This document shows, piece after piece, positions 13,685 to 37,087 of a stretch of DNA of 64,000 bases. Below the pieces are notes generated by a model that saw only the letters and a list, made by a program, of their open reading frames with translations, did not search any database and was not told the DNA's origin. Source of the DNA: Sphaerisporangium rubeum (lineage in GTDB: Bacteria > Actinomycetota > Actinomycetes > Streptosporangiales > Streptosporangiaceae); contig NZ_JACHIU010000001.1 of assembly GCF_014207705.1 (NCBI RefSeq), positions 5,696,501 to 5,760,500 on the forward strand. The letters are read 5' to 3'. Both the position numbers and the translations under genes were made by a program. Within the stretch, counting starts at the first letter, position 1. Every line of letters starts with the position of its first letter.

Positions 13685-14083
13685 AGTCGTTCAACTGTTG
13701 TGGCGCTGGACCCCGCCACCTGTCCGGCGCCGGTCGTGGACGCCGAGCGGGTCTCGGCGGTGCGGCGCAGCCTGCCGGCCGAGGAGACGGTGCAGGACCT
13801 CGCGCAGGTGTTCGGCCTTCTCGCCGACCCGGGCCGGCTGCGCATGATGGCCGCGCTCCTCGAAGGCGGCGAGATGTGCGTCTGTGATCTCGCCGCCGCC
13901 ACAGGGCAGAGCATGTCGGGGGCCTCGCACGCGCTGCGGCTGCTGCGCATGCGCCGCGTCGTGAAGGTCCGCAGGTCCGGCCGCATGGCCTACTACAGCC
14001 TCGCCGACGGCCACGTCCGCATGCTGTTCGACCTGGCCATCACGCACGCGCGCCACGCCGAGGAGGACCGGTCCGATGGGTGA
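13679..14083 (+). CDS. ArsR/SmtB-family metal-sensing repressor
   Basis: Winged-helix repressor, 134 residues, probably controlling the overlapping cation-efflux gene. The alpha-3 metal motif CVCDL (Cys67, Cys69 in GGEMCVCDLAAATG) precedes the recognition helix (SMSGASHALRLLRMRRVV). A C-terminal alpha-5 site is also present: Asp110, His112, His123, His126 in ADGHVRMLFDLAITHARH. That is the SmtB/CzrA-type zinc site, so zinc is the most likely ligand. I use ATG 13679 rather than the longer upstream frame, because family similarity starts here. Its stop overlaps the CDF start by 8 bases, implying coupling. Confidence 0.92.
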   Translation: MKSRSTVVALDPATCPAPVVDAERVSAVRRSLPAEETVQDLAQVFGLLADPGRLRMMAALLEGGEMCVCDLAAATGQSMSGASHALRLLRMRRVVKVRRSGRMAYYSLADGHVRMLFDLAITHARHAEEDRSDG

Positions 14084-18063: not shown

Positions 18064-20337
<2,274 letters not shown>

Positions 20338-23280: not shown

Positions 23281-23317
23281 GCCGTGCGCCGCACCCAGGC
23301 CGGGTGTGGCGCACGGC
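23281..23317 (+). terminator. tex terminator, 3' arm shared with a tandem array
   Basis: 16-bp stem (GCCGTGCGCCGCACCC at 23281-23296 pairing with 23302-23317, one G-U pair) and loop AGGCC, 54 bases past the tex stop. The 3' arm is contained in the first copies of the 17-bp repeat array that follows. Confidence 0.7.
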
Positions 23318-23458
23318 CGGGTGTGGCGCACGGCCGGGTGTGGCGCACGGCCGGGTGTGGCGCACGGCCGGGTGTGGCGCACGGCCGGGTGTGGCGCACG
23401 GCCGGGTGTGGCGCACGGCCGGGTGTGGCGCACGGCCGGGTGTGGCGCACGGCCGGGT
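23299..23458. repeat. Nine-copy 17-bp perfect tandem repeat
   Basis: Nine identical copies of GCCGGGTGTGGCGCACG (23299-23451) plus a 7-base partial copy ending inside the stop codon region of the phosphotriesterase-like gene. There are no spacers, so this is not a CRISPR. The unit is not a multiple of 3 and carries no stop, which is why spurious repetitive reading frames cross it. Copy number is likely to vary between strains. Confidence 0.97.
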
Positions 23459-31544: not shown

Positions 31545-34265
31545 GTGATCGTTTTCGTCGCGCTCGTCTCGATGAGCGCGCTGGCCGTCGCGGCTCCTGT
31601 CCTGGCCCGGCGCCTCGGCAGGAACGCCGGCTACGTGATCGCGGCGGGCTTCGTCGCGGTGGCGGCGCTGCTTTCCACGGAGTGGCCGGACGTCCTGGCC
31701 GGACGTCCCCCCGGCGTGTCGTGGCCGTGGCTCCCCGCGCTCGGTGTGTCCTTCACGCTGCGGCTCGACGGGCTGGCCTCCCTGTTCTGCCTGCTGGTGC
31801 TCGTCGTGGGTGCGCTGATCATGGCGTACTGTCCCCGCTACCTGACGCCGGACGGCCGCCACGGCGAGATCTACTTCCTGCTGACCGCGTTCGGCGGCGC
31901 GATGTTCGGCCTGGTGCTCGCCGGGGACCTGGTCCTGCTGCTGGTGTTCTGGGAGACGACCAGCATCCTGTCGTTCTTCCTGATCGCGAGCGCCGGCGGC
32001 AAAGGCGAGCGGCCCGCCACGCGGGCCCTGCTCGTCACCGGCGCGGGTGGGCTGGCCCTGCTGCTCGCGGTGGTGCTGATCGCGGCCACCGTGGGGAGCA
32101 CCGACATCGAGACCGTGCTCGCGGCACGGCTACGGGTGCTCGCCTCGCCGGTGGCGCCGGCGATCGGGGGACTGCTGATCCTCGCGGCGTTCACCAAGTC
32201 GGCGCAGGTGCCGTTCCACTTCTGGCTGCCCGGCGCGATGGTGGCCATCACCCCGGTCAGCGCCTACCTGCACGCGGCGACCATGGTGAAGGCCGGCATC
32301 TACCTGCTGACCCGGTTCTCCACGCTGTTCGCGGGCCGTACGGGCTGGGCCCTGGTGCTGATCGGCACCGGCCTGGTCACCGCTCTGCTCGGCGCCGTGC
32401 TGGCGCTGCGTGAACACGACCTCAAGGCGCTGCTGGCCTACTCCACGGTCAGCCAGCTCGGCCTGCTGGTCGCCGCGATCGGCGTCGGCACGACGGTCGC
32501 GCTGGCGGCGGCGATCCTGCACACGTTCGCGCACGCGCTGTTCAAGGCGACCCTGTTCATGCTGGTCGGCATCATCGACCGGGAGGCGGGGAGCCGCGAC
32601 ATCCGGCGGCTGTCGGGACTGATGCGGGTCATGCCGGTCACCGCCACGTTGACCGGTCTCGCCGGACTGTCGCTCGCGGGGGTCGCGCCGCTGATCGGGT
32701 TCGTGAGCAAGGAGTCGCTGTTCCAGGGGTTCGCCGGCGCGCGCGTCTTCCCCGGCAGCGGTGTGGTCACCGGTGCGCTCGCGGTGGCCGCGTCGGCGCT
32801 GACGTTCAGCTACGGCGTGCGCATCTTCTACGGCGCGTTCGCCGGGCCCACGCTGCAACGGCTGTACGAGCCCTCCTGGGCCTTCCTCGCGCCTGCGGCG
32901 GTGGCCGCGGTGGCGGGTACGGTGCTCGGCCCCGCGGTGACGGTGCTGAACCCGTTGGTGCGGCGGGCCACGCTCGACGTCGAGCCGTGGGAGCGTCCGC
33001 CGCACTTCTCGCTGTGGCACGGCTTCAGCGCCGAACTGCTCATGTCCGGCGTCACCATCGGGATCGGCCTCGTGCTTTTCCTGGCGCGTGCGCCGGTCGA
33101 CAGAGCGCTGCAACGCCTACCTTCGCCGGTCGGCGAGAAGGTGTTCGACAGCATCCACCAGGCATTGATCAGGCTGGGGAACGTGGTCGGCCGACCGGAC
33201 CGCAGGGACTCGGTGGCGGCGTTCCTCGCGCGTCCGGTGGCCGGGGTCGTGCTGCTCGGCGCGGCCGGCCTGGTGCTGCTCGGCGCGCCGCCGGACCTCA
33301 GGGTGGCGGACGGGCCGGCGGACCGGGTGGTGCTCGCGCTGCTCACGGCCTCGGTCATCGGGGTGGCGGCGGCGCGTTCCGCGCTGGCGGCGGTGGCGCT
33401 GCTCGGCGCGGTGGGGCTGGTCGTGACGGTGTGGTTCCTGCTCGCCGGTGGACCGGACGTGGCGCTGACGTTGCTGCTGGTGGAGATCCTCACCGCGATG
33501 ATCGCGGCGTTCGTGCTGCGTGACCTGCCGCGCCGCTTCCCCCGCACCACGCGCCGCGTGCGTCTCGCCGCCGGGGTGGCGGCGGCTCTCGCCGGGCTCG
33601 CCGCGGCGACCGGCACGGCGGCGCTGACCGGTCGCGGCGAGCCGTCGGCCGCCGGGGAGTTCTTCCTGCGGGCCGCCGAGCCGCGGACCGGTGGACGCAA
33701 CGTCGTGAACACCATCCTGGTGGACTTCCGCGGCCTGGACACCCTCGGTGAGACGAGCGTGCTCGCCGCCGCCGCGCTCGGTCTGCTGCTCCTCCCCGGC
33801 GTGGCCCGCGCGCGGGCCGGCCTCGGTCCCGGGCCGGTGCTCGGGCCGGCCCGCCGCCTGTTCGTGCCGGTCATCGGGGTGCTGTCGGCCTACCTGTTCC
33901 TGCGTGGCCACAACGAGCCAGGCGGGGGGTTCGCCGCCGCGCTGGTCGGCGGCATCGCGATCGCGTTCGGCGCGCTGGTCGGCCACCGGAGCCGCGTCGG
34001 CCCGCCGCGTTCGCGGGCCATGCCGTTCCTGTCGGCCGGTCTGCTGCTCTGCTCGGCGGTGGGCCTGTTCGCCATGGCGCTCGGCGGCCCGTTCCTCACC
34101 CCGCTCACGGCGACCTTCACCGTGCCGCCATTCGGCGCCGTGGGGCTCTCCTCGTCGCTGCTGTTCGACCTCGGGGTGTACCTGCTGGTGTTCGGCCTGC
34201 TGGTCACGGCCGTCGGCAGGCTCGGCGGCGAGATGAGCGTGGCGAGCGAGGTGAGCGCGCGGTGA
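31545..34265 (+). CDS. mrpA: Mrp Na+/H+ antiporter subunit A (fused A/B)
   Basis: Largest subunit of the hetero-oligomeric Mrp antiporter, 906 residues, homologous to the proton-pumping NuoL subunit of complex I. The N-terminal region is NuoL-like (FWETTSILSFFLI, HAATMVKAGIYLL, LAYSTVSQLGLL, HALFKATLFMLVG). The C-terminal part carries the MrpB-like segment (TILVDFRGLDTLGE, LFLRGHNEPGGGF), so no separate mrpB gene is needed, as is usual in actinobacteria. GTG 31545 has TAGGAG six bases upstream. First gene of a six-gene operon whose stop overlaps the next start (GTGA). Exports sodium, contributing to alkali and salt tolerance. Confidence 0.96.
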   Translation: MIVFVALVSMSALAVAAPVLARRLGRNAGYVIAAGFVAVAALLSTEWPDVLAGRPPGVSWPWLPALGVSFTLRLDGLASLFCLLVLVVGALIMAYCPRYLTPDGRHGEIYFLLTAFGGAMFGLVLAGDLVLLLVFWETTSILSFFLIASAGGKGERPATRALLVTGAGGLALLLAVVLIAATVGSTDIETVLAARLRVLASPVAPAIGGLLILAAFTKSAQVPFHFWLPGAMVAITPVSAYLHAATMVKAGIYLLTRFSTLFAGRTGWALVLIGTGLVTALLGAVLALREHDLKALLAYSTVSQLGLLVAAIGVGTTVALAAAILHTFAHALFKATLFMLVGIIDREAGSRDIRRLSGLMRVMPVTATLTGLAGLSLAGVAPLIGFVSKESLFQGFAGARVFPGSGVVTGALAVAASALTFSYGVRIFYGAFAGPTLQRLYEPSWAFLAPAAVAAVAGTVLGPAVTVLNPLVRRATLDVEPWERPPHFSLWHGFSAELLMSGVTIGIGLVLFLARAPVDRALQRLPSPVGEKVFDSIHQALIRLGNVVGRPDRRDSVAAFLARPVAGVVLLGAAGLVLLGAPPDLRVADGPADRVVLALLTASVIGVAAARSALAAVALLGAVGLVVTVWFLLAGGPDVALTLLLVEILTAMIAAFVLRDLPRRFPRTTRRVRLAAGVAAALAGLAAATGTAALTGRGEPSAAGEFFLRAAEPRTGGRNVVNTILVDFRGLDTLGETSVLAAAALGLLLLPGVARARAGLGPGPVLGPARRLFVPVIGVLSAYLFLRGHNEPGGGFAAALVGGIAIAFGALVGHRSRVGPPRSRAMPFLSAGLLLCSAVGLFAMALGGPFLTPLTATFTVPPFGAVGLSSSLLFDLGVYLLVFGLLVTAVGRLGGEMSVASEVSAR

Positions 34266-34582
34266 CGGCGGCCGTCGCGGTGGGGGTCCTGGTCGCCGGT
34301 GGCGTCTACCTGGTCCTGTGTCCGGGGCTGGTGCGCGTCACCTTCGGCTTCGTGCTGCTCGGCCACGCGGTGAACATCCTGCTGGTGACCTCGGGGGGCC
34401 TCACGCGGCGGGCCGCGCCGCTGGCCGGCTCAGGCGACCCGGCACAGATGGCCGACCCGCTGCCGCAGGCGTTCGTGCTCACCGCGATCGTCATCACGTT
34501 CGGCATCACCGTGTACCTGCTCGCGCTCGCCGGGGCCGAGCACCACGGGGAGCCCACCGGCCCTGAGGAGCCTTCCTCGTGA
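34262..34582 (+). CDS. mrpC: Mrp antiporter subunit C
   Basis: A 106-residue, three-helix membrane subunit homologous to NuoK of complex I. RVTFGFVLLGHAVNILLVT and DPLPQAFVLTAIVITFGITV are family signatures, the latter with the conserved LPQALVLTAIVI pattern. It begins at a GTG overlapping the mrpA stop and ends in a GTGA overlap with mrpD, so translation is coupled through the operon. Confidence 0.96.
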   Translation: MTAAVAVGVLVAGGVYLVLCPGLVRVTFGFVLLGHAVNILLVTSGGLTRRAAPLAGSGDPAQMADPLPQAFVLTAIVITFGITVYLLALAGAEHHGEPTGPEEPSS

Positions 34583-36036
34583 TCGGCGCGGCGCTCGTCC
34601 TGCCGACGGCGCTGGCGCTGCCGGCCGCCGGGCTGCTGCTCGCCGTCCCCGGCCGCCGCGCGCTGCACCGCCTGACCGGCGCCGCGGCCGGCGTGGTGGC
34701 GTTGCTGACCGGCGGCGCGCTGCTGGCCGCCACCCTGGACGGCGCGGTTCCCGCGCAGGACGTCGGCGGCTGGGCCGGTCACGGCATCGTGTTCGCCGCC
34801 GACGTCCTCAGCGCGCTCATGGTGTGCGTCAGCGCGGTGCTGGTGCTCGCCGGGCTCGCCATGGCCGCCGCGACCGGCGAGGACGCCGACCCGAGGTTCG
34901 TGCCGCTCGTCCTGCTGCTGTCGGCCGGCATGTACGGCGCGCTGCTCACCGCGGACCTGTTCAACCTGTTCGTGTTCGTCGAGGTCATGCTGGTGCCGTC
35001 GTACGCGCTGCTGGTCATGGGTGGCGGCGCGCGGCGCGTCGCGGCCGGTCGTGTCTACGTGACGGTCAACCTGTTCGCGTCCACGACCCTCCTCGCCGGG
35101 ATCGGCCTGCTGTACGCGGTCACCGGCAGCGTGAACCTCGGTGAGCTGGCCGGTGCGGCGCGGCACAGCGGGGCCGCCGCGGCGGCCGGCGCGGTCGTGC
35201 TGCTGGCGCTGGCGGTCAAGACGGCCGTGGTCCCGCTGCACGGCTGGCTGCCGCGCAGCTACCCCTGCGCGCCGCCTGCCGTCACCGTGCTGTTCTCCGG
35301 CCTGCTCACGAAGATCGGCCTGTACGCGATCATCCGGATCTACGCGGTGGTCTTCGCCGGGGCCCCCGAGGTCCGCTGGGTGATCATGACGGCGGCGCTG
35401 CTGACCATGGTGATCGGCGTCCTCGGCGCCGTCGGCGAGGACACGATGCGGAGCATCCTGGTGTTCCACATGGTCAGCCAGATCGGCTACATCCTGCTCG
35501 GCCTGGCGCTGTTCACCGCTTTCGGGCTGGCCGCCGCGATCTTCTACCTGGCGCAGTACATCCTGGTCAAGGCCGCGCTGCTGGCCTGTGCGGGTGCCGT
35601 CGAGACCACACGCGGCACCGGCAGGCTCGGCGCGCTCGGCGGCGTGGCCTCGGCGGACCCGCTGCTCGCCACGACCTTCATGCTCGCGGCCCTCTCCCTG
35701 GCCGGCCTGCCGCCGTTGTCCGGGTTCGTCGCCAAACTGAGCCTGGTACGCGCGGCCGTCCCCGCCGGGGAGCACCTCGCCGCCGCCACCGCCGTCGCGG
35801 TCAGCCTGATCACCCTGACGTCGATGATCAAGATCTGGAGCGGTGTCTTCCGGGGGACACCCCCTCCCGGTTCCGCACCGCCGCGCGGACGGCTCGCGCT
35901 GACCGCGCCGGCGCTCGCGCTCGCCGTGCCGTCCCTGGTGCTCGGCGCCGGGGCCCAGCCGCTGCTCACGGTCGCCGGCGCGGCCGCGGCCGGGCTCGTC
36001 GACACCTCGGCGTACGTGAGAGCGGTGACACCGTGA
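34579..36036 (+). CDS. mrpD: Mrp antiporter subunit D
   Basis: A 485-residue NuoN/NuoM-like membrane subunit forming part of the ion path. Signature segments are LFNLFVFVEVMLVPSYALLV, ALAVKTAVVPLHGWLPRSYP (with the conserved Lys) and FHMVSQIGYILLGLALF. Starts at a GTG overlapping the mrpC stop. Its last residues, AVTP-stop, are part of a 38-bp unit repeated three times into mrpE. Confidence 0.96.
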   Translation: MIGAALVLPTALALPAAGLLLAVPGRRALHRLTGAAAGVVALLTGGALLAATLDGAVPAQDVGGWAGHGIVFAADVLSALMVCVSAVLVLAGLAMAAATGEDADPRFVPLVLLLSAGMYGALLTADLFNLFVFVEVMLVPSYALLVMGGGARRVAAGRVYVTVNLFASTTLLAGIGLLYAVTGSVNLGELAGAARHSGAAAAAGAVVLLALAVKTAVVPLHGWLPRSYPCAPPAVTVLFSGLLTKIGLYAIIRIYAVVFAGAPEVRWVIMTAALLTMVIGVLGAVGEDTMRSILVFHMVSQIGYILLGLALFTAFGLAAAIFYLAQYILVKAALLACAGAVETTRGTGRLGALGGVASADPLLATTFMLAALSLAGLPPLSGFVAKLSLVRAAVPAGEHLAAATAVAVSLITLTSMIKIWSGVFRGTPPPGSAPPRGRLALTAPALALAVPSLVLGAGAQPLLTVAGAAAAGLVDTSAYVRAVTP

Positions 36037-36135
36037 CCGGGCCGGTCCTCGGCAGCATGGCGGTGAGACCGTGACCGGGCCGGTACTCGATGAAGTGGCG
36101 GTGACACCGTGACCGGGCCGGCCCTCGGCGGTGTG
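36022..36135 (+). repeat. 38-bp triplication of the mrpD/mrpE junction creating two coupled mini-ORFs
   Basis: Three 38-bp tandem copies begin at 36022, 36060 and 36098. Each contains CCGTGACCGGGCCGG, in which GTGA is both a start (GTG) and the last bases of a preceding stop (TGA). Because 38 is not a multiple of 3, the mrpD stop overlaps GTG 36033, which opens a 13-codon ORF ending at 36074. That stop overlaps GTG 36071, opening a second 13-codon ORF ending at 36112. That in turn overlaps the mrpE GTG at 36109. Both mini-peptides begin MTGPVL and end AVRP or AVTP. Confidence 0.93.
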
Positions 36136-36489
36136 CGGCGCGCGGCCGTACGCGCCGCACGTGCGGCGGCGTTCCTCGGTCACTACGGCCGGAGTTTCCT
36201 GGTGGCCAACCTGACCGTCGCCTGGGAGATCGTCACCCCCGGCAGCGGGCTCGCCCCGGCCATCGTCGAGCTGCGGCTGCGCGCGCGTACACCGTTCGAG
36301 ATAGTCGCGATGGCGCACCTCGTCGCGCTGACCCCCGGCACGCTCGTCATCGAGGTGCGCACCGACCCACCCACCCTGTTCGTGCACGCCATGCACGCCG
36401 CCGACCCCGGCGCGCTCCTGGCCACGCTCGGCGACCTGGAGCGCCGGCTGCTCGCCGTGCTGCGACCGGCAGGAGGCGAGCTCTCGTGA
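36109..36489 (+). CDS. mrpE: Mrp antiporter subunit E
   Basis: A 126-residue subunit with an N-terminal membrane region (FLVANLTVAWEIVTPG, the family signature) and a short cytoplasmic C-terminal domain (LTPGTLVIEVRTDPPTLFVH). This is shorter than many MrpE proteins (about 150-170). GTG 36109 lies in the third copy of the 38-bp junction repeat and overlaps the stop of the second mini-ORF, so translation may reach it through two short reinitiation steps. The stop overlaps mrpF by GTGA. Confidence 0.93.
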   Translation: MTGPALGGVRRAAVRAARAAAFLGHYGRSFLVANLTVAWEIVTPGSGLAPAIVELRLRARTPFEIVAMAHLVALTPGTLVIEVRTDPPTLFVHAMHAADPGALLATLGDLERRLLAVLRPAGGELS

Positions 36490-36743
36490 CCGTCGTCGAC
36501 CTCATGCTCGGCGTCCTCGCCGTGATCTTCCTCGTGGCGCTCCGGAGCCTGGTGACCGGGCCGTCCGACGCCGACCGCCTGGTCGCGCTGGACCTCGGGT
36601 TCGTCGTGTTCGTGGCGGCCGTGGCCCTGCTCGCGGTACGGCAGCGTGCCCCCTGGATGCTGATCCTCGTGCTCGCCGCCACGCTGGTCGGGTTCCTCGC
36701 CACGGTCGCGGTGGCGCACCTGCTGGACCGGCGGTCGCGATGA
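36486..36743 (+). CDS. mrpF: Mrp antiporter subunit F
   Basis: An 85-residue, three-helix membrane subunit. RSLVTGPSDADRLVALDLGF is the family signature (GP-x-xDR-x-VALD). Overlaps mrpE (GTGA) and mrpG (ATGA), keeping the whole operon translationally coupled. Confidence 0.95.
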   Translation: MTVVDLMLGVLAVIFLVALRSLVTGPSDADRLVALDLGFVVFVAAVALLAVRQRAPWMLILVLAATLVGFLATVAVAHLLDRRSR

Positions 36744-37087
36744 CGGCGATCGGCACCGTCCTCGCGCTCCTCGGCACCGGCCTCATGGTGGTGGCGGCCG
36801 TCGGCCTGCTCCGCCTCCCCGACGCCTACAACAAGGTCAACGCGGTGGCGAAGGCCGCGGTCTCCGGCGTGATGTGCGTCCTGCTCGGCACACTGCTGCT
36901 CCTGCCGGGCCTGGACACCGCCGCCGTCCTCCTCGTCGGCGTCGCGCTGCAGGTCCTCACCTCACCGTTCGGCACGTACGCGATCGGCCGCGCGTCCTAC
37001 CGCAGCGGGGCCCCGCTCACCGAGGCCACCCATCGGGACGACCTGGCCGCCGGCCCTCGTGACGGCCCCCGGGGAACCGCGCCGTGA
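36740..37087 (+). CDS. mrpG: Mrp antiporter subunit G
   Basis: A 115-residue, three-helix membrane subunit; last gene of the antiporter operon. VGLLRLPDAYNKVNAVAKAA is the family signature (RLPD-Y-R/N). Starts at an ATG overlapping the mrpF stop. A GC-rich partial inverted repeat in the 70 bases before the convergent phosphotransferase gene may end transcription. Confidence 0.95.
   Translation: MTAIGTVLALLGTGLMVVAAVGLLRLPDAYNKVNAVAKAAVSGVMCVLLGTLLLLPGLDTAAVLLVGVALQVLTSPFGTYAIGRASYRSGAPLTEATHRDDLAAGPRDGPRGTAP

Follow-up and report, generated by a model that had tools for sequence, protein, structure and literature searches.

Coupling by termination and reinitiation has been described for gene pairs in which an ATGA or GTGA overlap joins the stop to the next start and the Shine-Dalgarno (SD) site lies within the upstream ORF (PMC6728339, PMC10666635). 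Strict coupling was found in 13 of the 14 pairs studied in PMC6728339. According to PMC10666635, coupling needs no more than the last 15 nt of the upstream gene, and in reporter tests it is nearly abolished at distances of about 20–38 nt. The coupling data of both papers come from E. coli and Haloferax. The delivery of ribosomes by short ORFs is an accepted idea as well as a synthetic tool: in the bicistronic design and in synthetic 'nonsense' short ORFs, a leader ORF with a ribosome-binding site (RBS) near its stop feeds the next start (PMC13255528, PMC12548453). The closest known case to the array described here is the mycobacterial MIRU, a dispersed and apparently mobile unit with an ORF that connects to a gene at a −4 nt spacing, which is proposed to let the insertion sit with little effect on expression (PMC12548453). 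MIRUs between senX3 and regX3 lie in tandem and vary in number, with either two or three 77-bp units or two of these together with a 53-bp one (PMC6615170, PMC4213456).

The array between mrpD and mrpE of Sphaerisporangium rubeum resembles all of these systems, and its unit has a local origin. Its small ORFs have the −4 spacing and its units are in tandem, as in MIRUs; in contrast to them, its unit has 38 nt, carries the SD of mrpE itself, is undispersed and is cut from the flanking genes. It has the GTGA overlap and the embedded SD of termination-reinitiation pairs, but these usually have one overlap, whereas the array has three in series with two 13-codon ORFs. As in bicistronic leaders, the codons of each mini-ORF contain the RBS of the next start, and stop and start overlap; unlike these leaders, the array is natural, lies within an operon, is fed by an upstream gene instead of a promoter, and comes in two serial copies. 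Outside MIRUs, we recognised no reiterated overlap or relayed gap in the open-licence literature, most of it represented by titles and abstracts. Nor did that literature, a few papers of which were available in part, yield a description of phase selection on relayed gaps.

The window, i.e., the whole stretch of 64,000 nt that was analysed, belongs to a one-contig genome of 7.5 Mb. Its mrp operon has the order mrpA (906 aa, with a fused MnhB domain), C, D, E, F, and G, with consistent Pfam matches, and the nearest named relatives of mrpD are from actinomycetes. A 38-nt unit covering the mrpD stop and the mrpE start occurs three times in tandem at 36022–36135 (Table 1), with spacings of 38 and 38 nt and a Tandem Repeats Finder score of 160. 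Across their first 32 nt, copy 2 shares 88% and copy 3 shares 97% identity with copy 1. Each unit joins the SD and the stop/start overlap to roughly 20 nt of mrpE, and reads GCGGTGA, four bases, then GTGA. The order is thus mrpD, mini-ORF 1, mini-ORF 2, mrpE, every link being a GTGA overlap (at 36033, 36071, and 36109) on which the preceding ORF closes. The first-pass annotation had described three 38-bp units and a chain leading to mrpE through two 13-codon ORFs; its unit coordinates and counts are correct, and its positions for both ORFs and for the mrpE start are exact. The other junctions of the operon are, as it also stated, single 4-nt overlaps (GTGA at 34262, 34579, and 36486; ATGA at 36740).

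Table 1. Features of the mrpD-mrpE junction, in window coordinates.
Feature	Coordinates	Strand	Description
mrpD	34579..36036	+	Pfam Proton_antipo_M, E 4e-54, and ORF list; TGA stop within unit 1
Repeat unit 1	36022..36059	+	SD-like GCGGTGA, CACC, GTGA overlap; 5' part read as ancestral mrpD end, aligns with mrpD ends of relatives
Mini-ORF 1	36033..36074	+	13 codons, VTGPVLGSMAVRP*; chimera of MrpE N-terminus and MrpD C-terminus
Repeat unit 2	36060..36097	+	SD-like GCGGTGA and GTGA
Mini-ORF 2	36071..36112	+	13 codons, VTGPVLDEVAVTP*
Repeat unit 3	36098..36135	+	SD-like GCGGTGA and GTGA; 3' part read as ancestral mrpE start, aligned with start of relatives
mrpE	36109..36489	+	126 aa; short form, Pfam MNHE matched from profile position 43

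Searches of this genome and of its family set the array apart. Its core 24-mer has no exact match elsewhere in the 7.5 Mb, and a single site matches it with three mismatches; a dispersed element was rejected because the core is otherwise unique to the array. The two-unit pattern was found in one of the 341 genomes of the family, namely this one. We then compared the junction with those of relatives, in which mrpD and mrpE were found side by side in 95 loci, giving 93 distinct junctions. The start of mrpE is at a single 4-nt overlap (−1 from the mrpD stop) in 87 of them; two others start at +2, three were not placed (L018, L094, L132), and the last is the array. Such a repeat is present only in this genome among the 93 distinct junctions: a self-match scan gave 26 for the array and at most 9 for any other.

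The start in unit 3 aligns with the mrpE start of close relatives (VTG in L061, MTA in L085). A check for homologues in which mrpE would start upstream in another frame produced none calling for such a start, with the three junctions above not placed, and another mrpE start was rejected since the alignment of the relatives backs unit 3. A read-through fusion of mrpD and mrpE was also discarded: the frame they share is interrupted by additional stops, up to one just short of +60 relative to the mrpD stop. From these alignments, we read unit 1 as the old end of mrpD, unit 3 as the old start of mrpE, and the stretch between as duplicated. The unit does not look like a MIRU-type mobile insertion, as it is made of an mrpD end and an mrpE start like those at the junctions of relatives. 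The suggestion of the first-pass annotation that slippage added two reinitiation steps while leaving the chain unbroken is supported by this picture, in which one ancestral overlap, the state of 87 of the 93 junctions, was multiplied by tandem duplication; the steps themselves are possible ones. Its further suggestions, a lowered MrpE stoichiometry or a tunable element, find no such support.

Most relatives have GGCGGTGA or a similar sequence shortly before the mrpE start, within the final codons of mrpD, and GGTG occurs within 20 nt in 78 of 90 distinct junctions. These codons are biased: in relatives, terminal Ala-Val pairs of MrpD are encoded by GCGGTG in 67 of 77 cases, versus 188 of the 794 Ala-Val pairs inside the body of mrpD. 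In these counts, 90 of the 95 loci were kept (L001, L031, L094, L018, and one duplicate were dropped), and many rows come from related species and are not independent. The median SD duplex energy is −11.9 kcal/mol at mrpD-mrpE junctions versus −5.0 kcal/mol in control windows. The three successive starts of the array have energies of −11.7, −10.7, and −12.7 kcal/mol, and other starts of the mrp operon range from −7.8 to −13.9 kcal/mol; all were computed with what we take to be the sequence of the 16S tail. Every unit places GCGGTGA inside an upstream ORF, as relatives do with biased codons. Since each copy is a complete landing site—SD, stop, and start—a duplication of length 2 modulo 3 would keep the coupling.

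The copies differ pairwise at 4, 7, and 8 of their 38 positions, and unevenly so. Only one site varies in columns 1–24 of the unit, which contain the SD, versus 8 of 14 in columns 25–38; 4 of 2,000 permutations were as extreme, a test that would be weakened if the six adjacent changes in columns 31–36 arose in one event, as they may have. This pattern fits an initiation region that has been kept. The closed chain itself follows from the length of the unit, 38 nt being 2 modulo 3, and from the lack of a stop in the relevant frame. Any duplication has about a 1-in-3 chance of falling in the phase of a chain, before other stops are counted, and a shuffle model gives a chance of 0.23 for a closed chain at the mrpD-mrpE gap. 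A duplication of length 0 modulo 3 would be expected simply to give the downstream protein N-terminal repeats. Two such cases were observed at overlaps, L237 at 13208 and L244 at 11656, with in-frame N-terminal repeats of 13 and 9 residues. The mrpD-mrpE locus alone, in one genome, is insufficient to show selection.

We scanned 1,752 junctions in four sets for junction-spanning duplications, blind to phase. They were found at 11 junctions, and at none in one shuffle of each junction. Their lags modulo 3 are 0 in six cases, 2 in five, and 1 in none, non-coupled pairs included. Upon inspection, six of the 11 are coupled pairs, with a lag of 2 in four, 0 in two, and 1 in none. The probability of this outcome by chance is 0.09, which is not significant, and we dropped the phase of all junction-spanning duplications as stand-alone evidence. 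Four of the six coupled pairs are in this genome—mrpD-mrpE, a TPR-protein junction (86 nt), an aminotransferase-AsnC junction (35 and 41 nt), and the in-frame L237—and two are in the congener G009: dprE1-dprE2 (32 nt, three copies) and the in-frame L244. The TPR junction has a single overlap in five congeners, and two others have in-frame N-terminal repeats that were not scored. At the aminotransferase-AsnC junction, congener G003 has a bridge made of one 107-nt relay. The junction downstream of hisH is chained in five of the 11 genomes of the genus, this one included, and not chained in six. It was left uncounted as a further instance because none of the 11 has a single overlap, which makes its ancestral state ambiguous. 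In one locus (L155, minus strand, 13738–13800; L270), hisH is joined to a gene for a small membrane protein by three mini-ORFs with a 35-nt repeat.

One gene pair was studied in depth across the family. It encodes an FAD-binding/ALO protein and a short-chain dehydrogenase, and is presumably dprE1-dprE2. In the genus, 8 of 11 genomes gave the pair, five of them with a single overlap. Congener G009 has a 32-nt unit in three copies, with two 11-codon mini-ORFs. In G007, which is close to G009 (93% identical protein), the copies span 33 and 32 nt, with an extra base in the first, but with their total length of 65 nt one 22-codon ORF still closes on dprE2. G004 has an unlike relay of 12 codons. A dprE match was present in 131 of the 341 family genomes, and we extended the analysis to 91 loci: eight came from the genus search, followed by 23 and then by the next 60 places, ranked by E-value and not by outcome. 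Eighty were usable and 11 lacked the full pair. This sample relied on simple ORF calling.

The 80 pairs comprise 22 with a single overlap, 29 in which dprE2 is displaced and chained, 26 in which it is displaced and unchained, and three with a gap above 250 nt. Among the displaced junctions whose dprE1 stop is start-capable, 29 of 45 are chained, versus 9.2 expected under random phase and 18.2 in shuffles of the same length. In 13 displaced junctions, the dprE2 start lacks a following A, which makes a relay of this type impossible; when both ends are overlap-capable, 29 of 32 are chained, and the eligible but unchained junctions are L323, L334, and L354. Clustering by gap similarity, a rough correction for kinship, leaves 21 of 24 chained, a number not attained in any of 200,000 simulations, versus 6.8 expected. 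The gap lengths of displaced junctions (n = 55) are 1 modulo 3, the relay phase, in 35 cases, 0 in 12, and 2 in eight. The relay ORFs are in another frame than either flanking gene, and hence are not explained as remnants of one of them. A CTGA stop is found in ten of the displaced junctions, which were entered as unchained; eight of the ten relay from a GTG four bases upstream, a post hoc count with no null. In these eight (L301–L304, L345–L347, and L349), dprE1 ends in GTGCTGA and the relay start lies four bases before the stop codon, an overlap longer than usual. In another genome, two successive relay mini-ORFs with the identical peptide VRPGGPVGRLGW are followed by a third relay ORF (L332, from G025). 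We interpret the sequence of this locus as a further duplication of the module, outside the genus.

Enrichment in mini-ORF bridges at large is weak or absent when the condition on both ends is not imposed: we observed 16 versus 10.4 expected in this genome, 5 versus 6.4 in G009, 8 versus 5.8 in G026, and 4 versus 3.1 in the mrp loci, and this generalisation was abandoned. With both ends overlap-capable, 32 of the 84 eligible pairs in samples from three family genomes and from the mrp loci are chained, versus 19.1 expected (P = 0.0009). The filter was set, for dprE and for the genome samples, after the unfiltered counts were known.

The reading that we find best, and hold to be probable, is a local duplication of the coupling module that was tolerated since the mini-ORFs relay ribosomes to mrpE. 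A ribosome ending mrpD would reinitiate at unit 1, make a 13-residue peptide with no role of its own, terminate at unit 2, repeat the cycle, and start mrpE. The dependence of mrpE translation on mrpD that this implies would have indirect backing from the phase counts at other junctions. If reinitiation is local, a gap of 75 nt would uncouple mrpE; the two mini-ORFs would restore the overlaps, each with its own SD, and act as relays holding mrpE coupled to mrpD over this distance. The duplication as such probably had little or no effect on fitness, and what we think was selected is its persistence with the chain unbroken. Judging from their sequences, relays of this kind at other junctions of the family seem to have been kept so that the hand-over does not fail. 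We lean slightly towards the view that interposed coupling relays are a recurrent, selected operon feature in this actinobacterial family, of which mrpD-mrpE is one instance. With the same slight preference, we expect a duplication or insertion between overlapping genes to be retained mainly when it can be read as stop-to-start mini-ORFs. Coupling has also been reported in synthetic constructs over 73 nt and over 150–850 nt (cited in PMC10666635), and a gap of 75 nt thus need not uncouple mrpE: the matter is disputed. This disputed scanning distance, together with the hisH junction, weighs slightly against the view that mini-ORFs relay ribosomes, and unit 3 has an SD that could bring in ribosomes without any relay.

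That last point is central to an explanation by neutral slippage, in which unit 3 starts mrpE de novo, aided by a general opening of the mRNA structure, and the mini-ORFs have no relay function. The duplex energy of GGCGGTGA before mrpE (−12.7 kcal/mol), the abundance of tandem repeats in the window (39 Tandem Repeats Finder entries with a score of at least 40, some overlapping), and a chance of roughly 1 in 4 for a closed chain all agree with it. Yet chained bridges are far above chance at dprE1-dprE2 (21 of 24 clusters versus 6.8) and above chance in the genome samples too, and a phase of 1 in none of the 11 junction-spanning duplications, a sample that includes non-coupled pairs, also speaks against it. 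We regard this explanation as rather doubtful. We give similarly little credit to an attenuator, compatible with a relay, in which ribosomes are lost at each reinitiation, the MrpE:MrpD ratio is lowered, and copy number is a tuning dial. Serial reinitiation that is less than fully efficient would multiply losses, and repeat number does vary between senX3 and regX3, with two or three copies of 77 bp (PMC6615170). But a solved Mrp structure places MrpE at the tip and at the dimer interface of every monomer (PMC7419157), so that too little MrpE should restrict the pump, and translation can be increased instead of lowered by a short ORF that lies immediately upstream and has an RBS of its own (PMC13255528).

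It is very improbable that the array works as a DNA or RNA element rather than in translation, i.e., as an internal promoter, terminator, regulator site, or structured RNA. The single-stranded DNA fold of the array is more stable than those of shuffled sequences (z = −2.6), which the repeat alone may produce, and expression of regX3 independent of senX3 has been reported from the MIRU-containing gap between these two genes (PMC4213456). The least variable part of the unit is the SD with the overlap, which the ordinary junctions of relatives also have, and this counts against such an element. RNA structure was dismissed after a fold z of −0.8 and no Rfam match, and a promoter or terminator after no sigma-70-type promoter-like or terminator-like site was found at 35500–36600. 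Tandem repeats are prone to assembly artefacts. Here, the array spans 114 nt in a one-contig genome, and its copies have diverged to an extent (4, 7, and 8 of 38 positions) that makes a collapsed or falsely expanded assembly unlikely; we consider an artefact next to negligible. The reading we retain is thus the duplicated module with relaying mini-ORFs, and selection for the continuity of relays is a more interesting part of it than the array itself.

If the family-wide result holds, many operon gaps of 20–150 nt that are taken as uncoupled need to be read again, and gene finders miss mini-ORFs whose role lies in their reading frame and not in their peptide. Phase selection on untranslated-looking gaps provides a statistical test for translated mini-ORFs without peptide conservation. 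Junctions in which near-identical landing sites occur once, twice, and three times form a natural series in which local reinitiation can be tested against ribosome scanning, and the loss per step assessed.

The mrpE gene is intact, and its nearest relatives are three Streptomyces loci (71–72% identity over the aligned part of mrpE, 58–66% over the best segment of mrpD), along with one genome of the same family (60% for mrpE, 64% for mrpD). A search of ten congeners gave no mrpE match at an E-value of 0.001, and the locus is thus patchy. The operon (31545–37087) may be absent from these congeners, perhaps pointing, with its nearest relatives in Streptomyces, to horizontal transfer. MrpE (36109–36489) lacks the N-terminal part of the family profile, the MNHE match beginning at position 43. 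Short forms of about 109–146 aa are common to many actinobacterial relatives, and one chain of known structure (7d3u) has 121 residues. In the Anoxybacillus Mrp complex, two N-terminal helices of MrpE form the dimer interface (PMC7419157), and dimerisation may therefore differ. Elsewhere in the window, a perfect tandem array at 23298–23458 has 9.5 copies of a 17-nt unit (Tandem Repeats Finder score 322), and a 285-nt unit is present in two tandem copies with 96% matches at 18635–19204.
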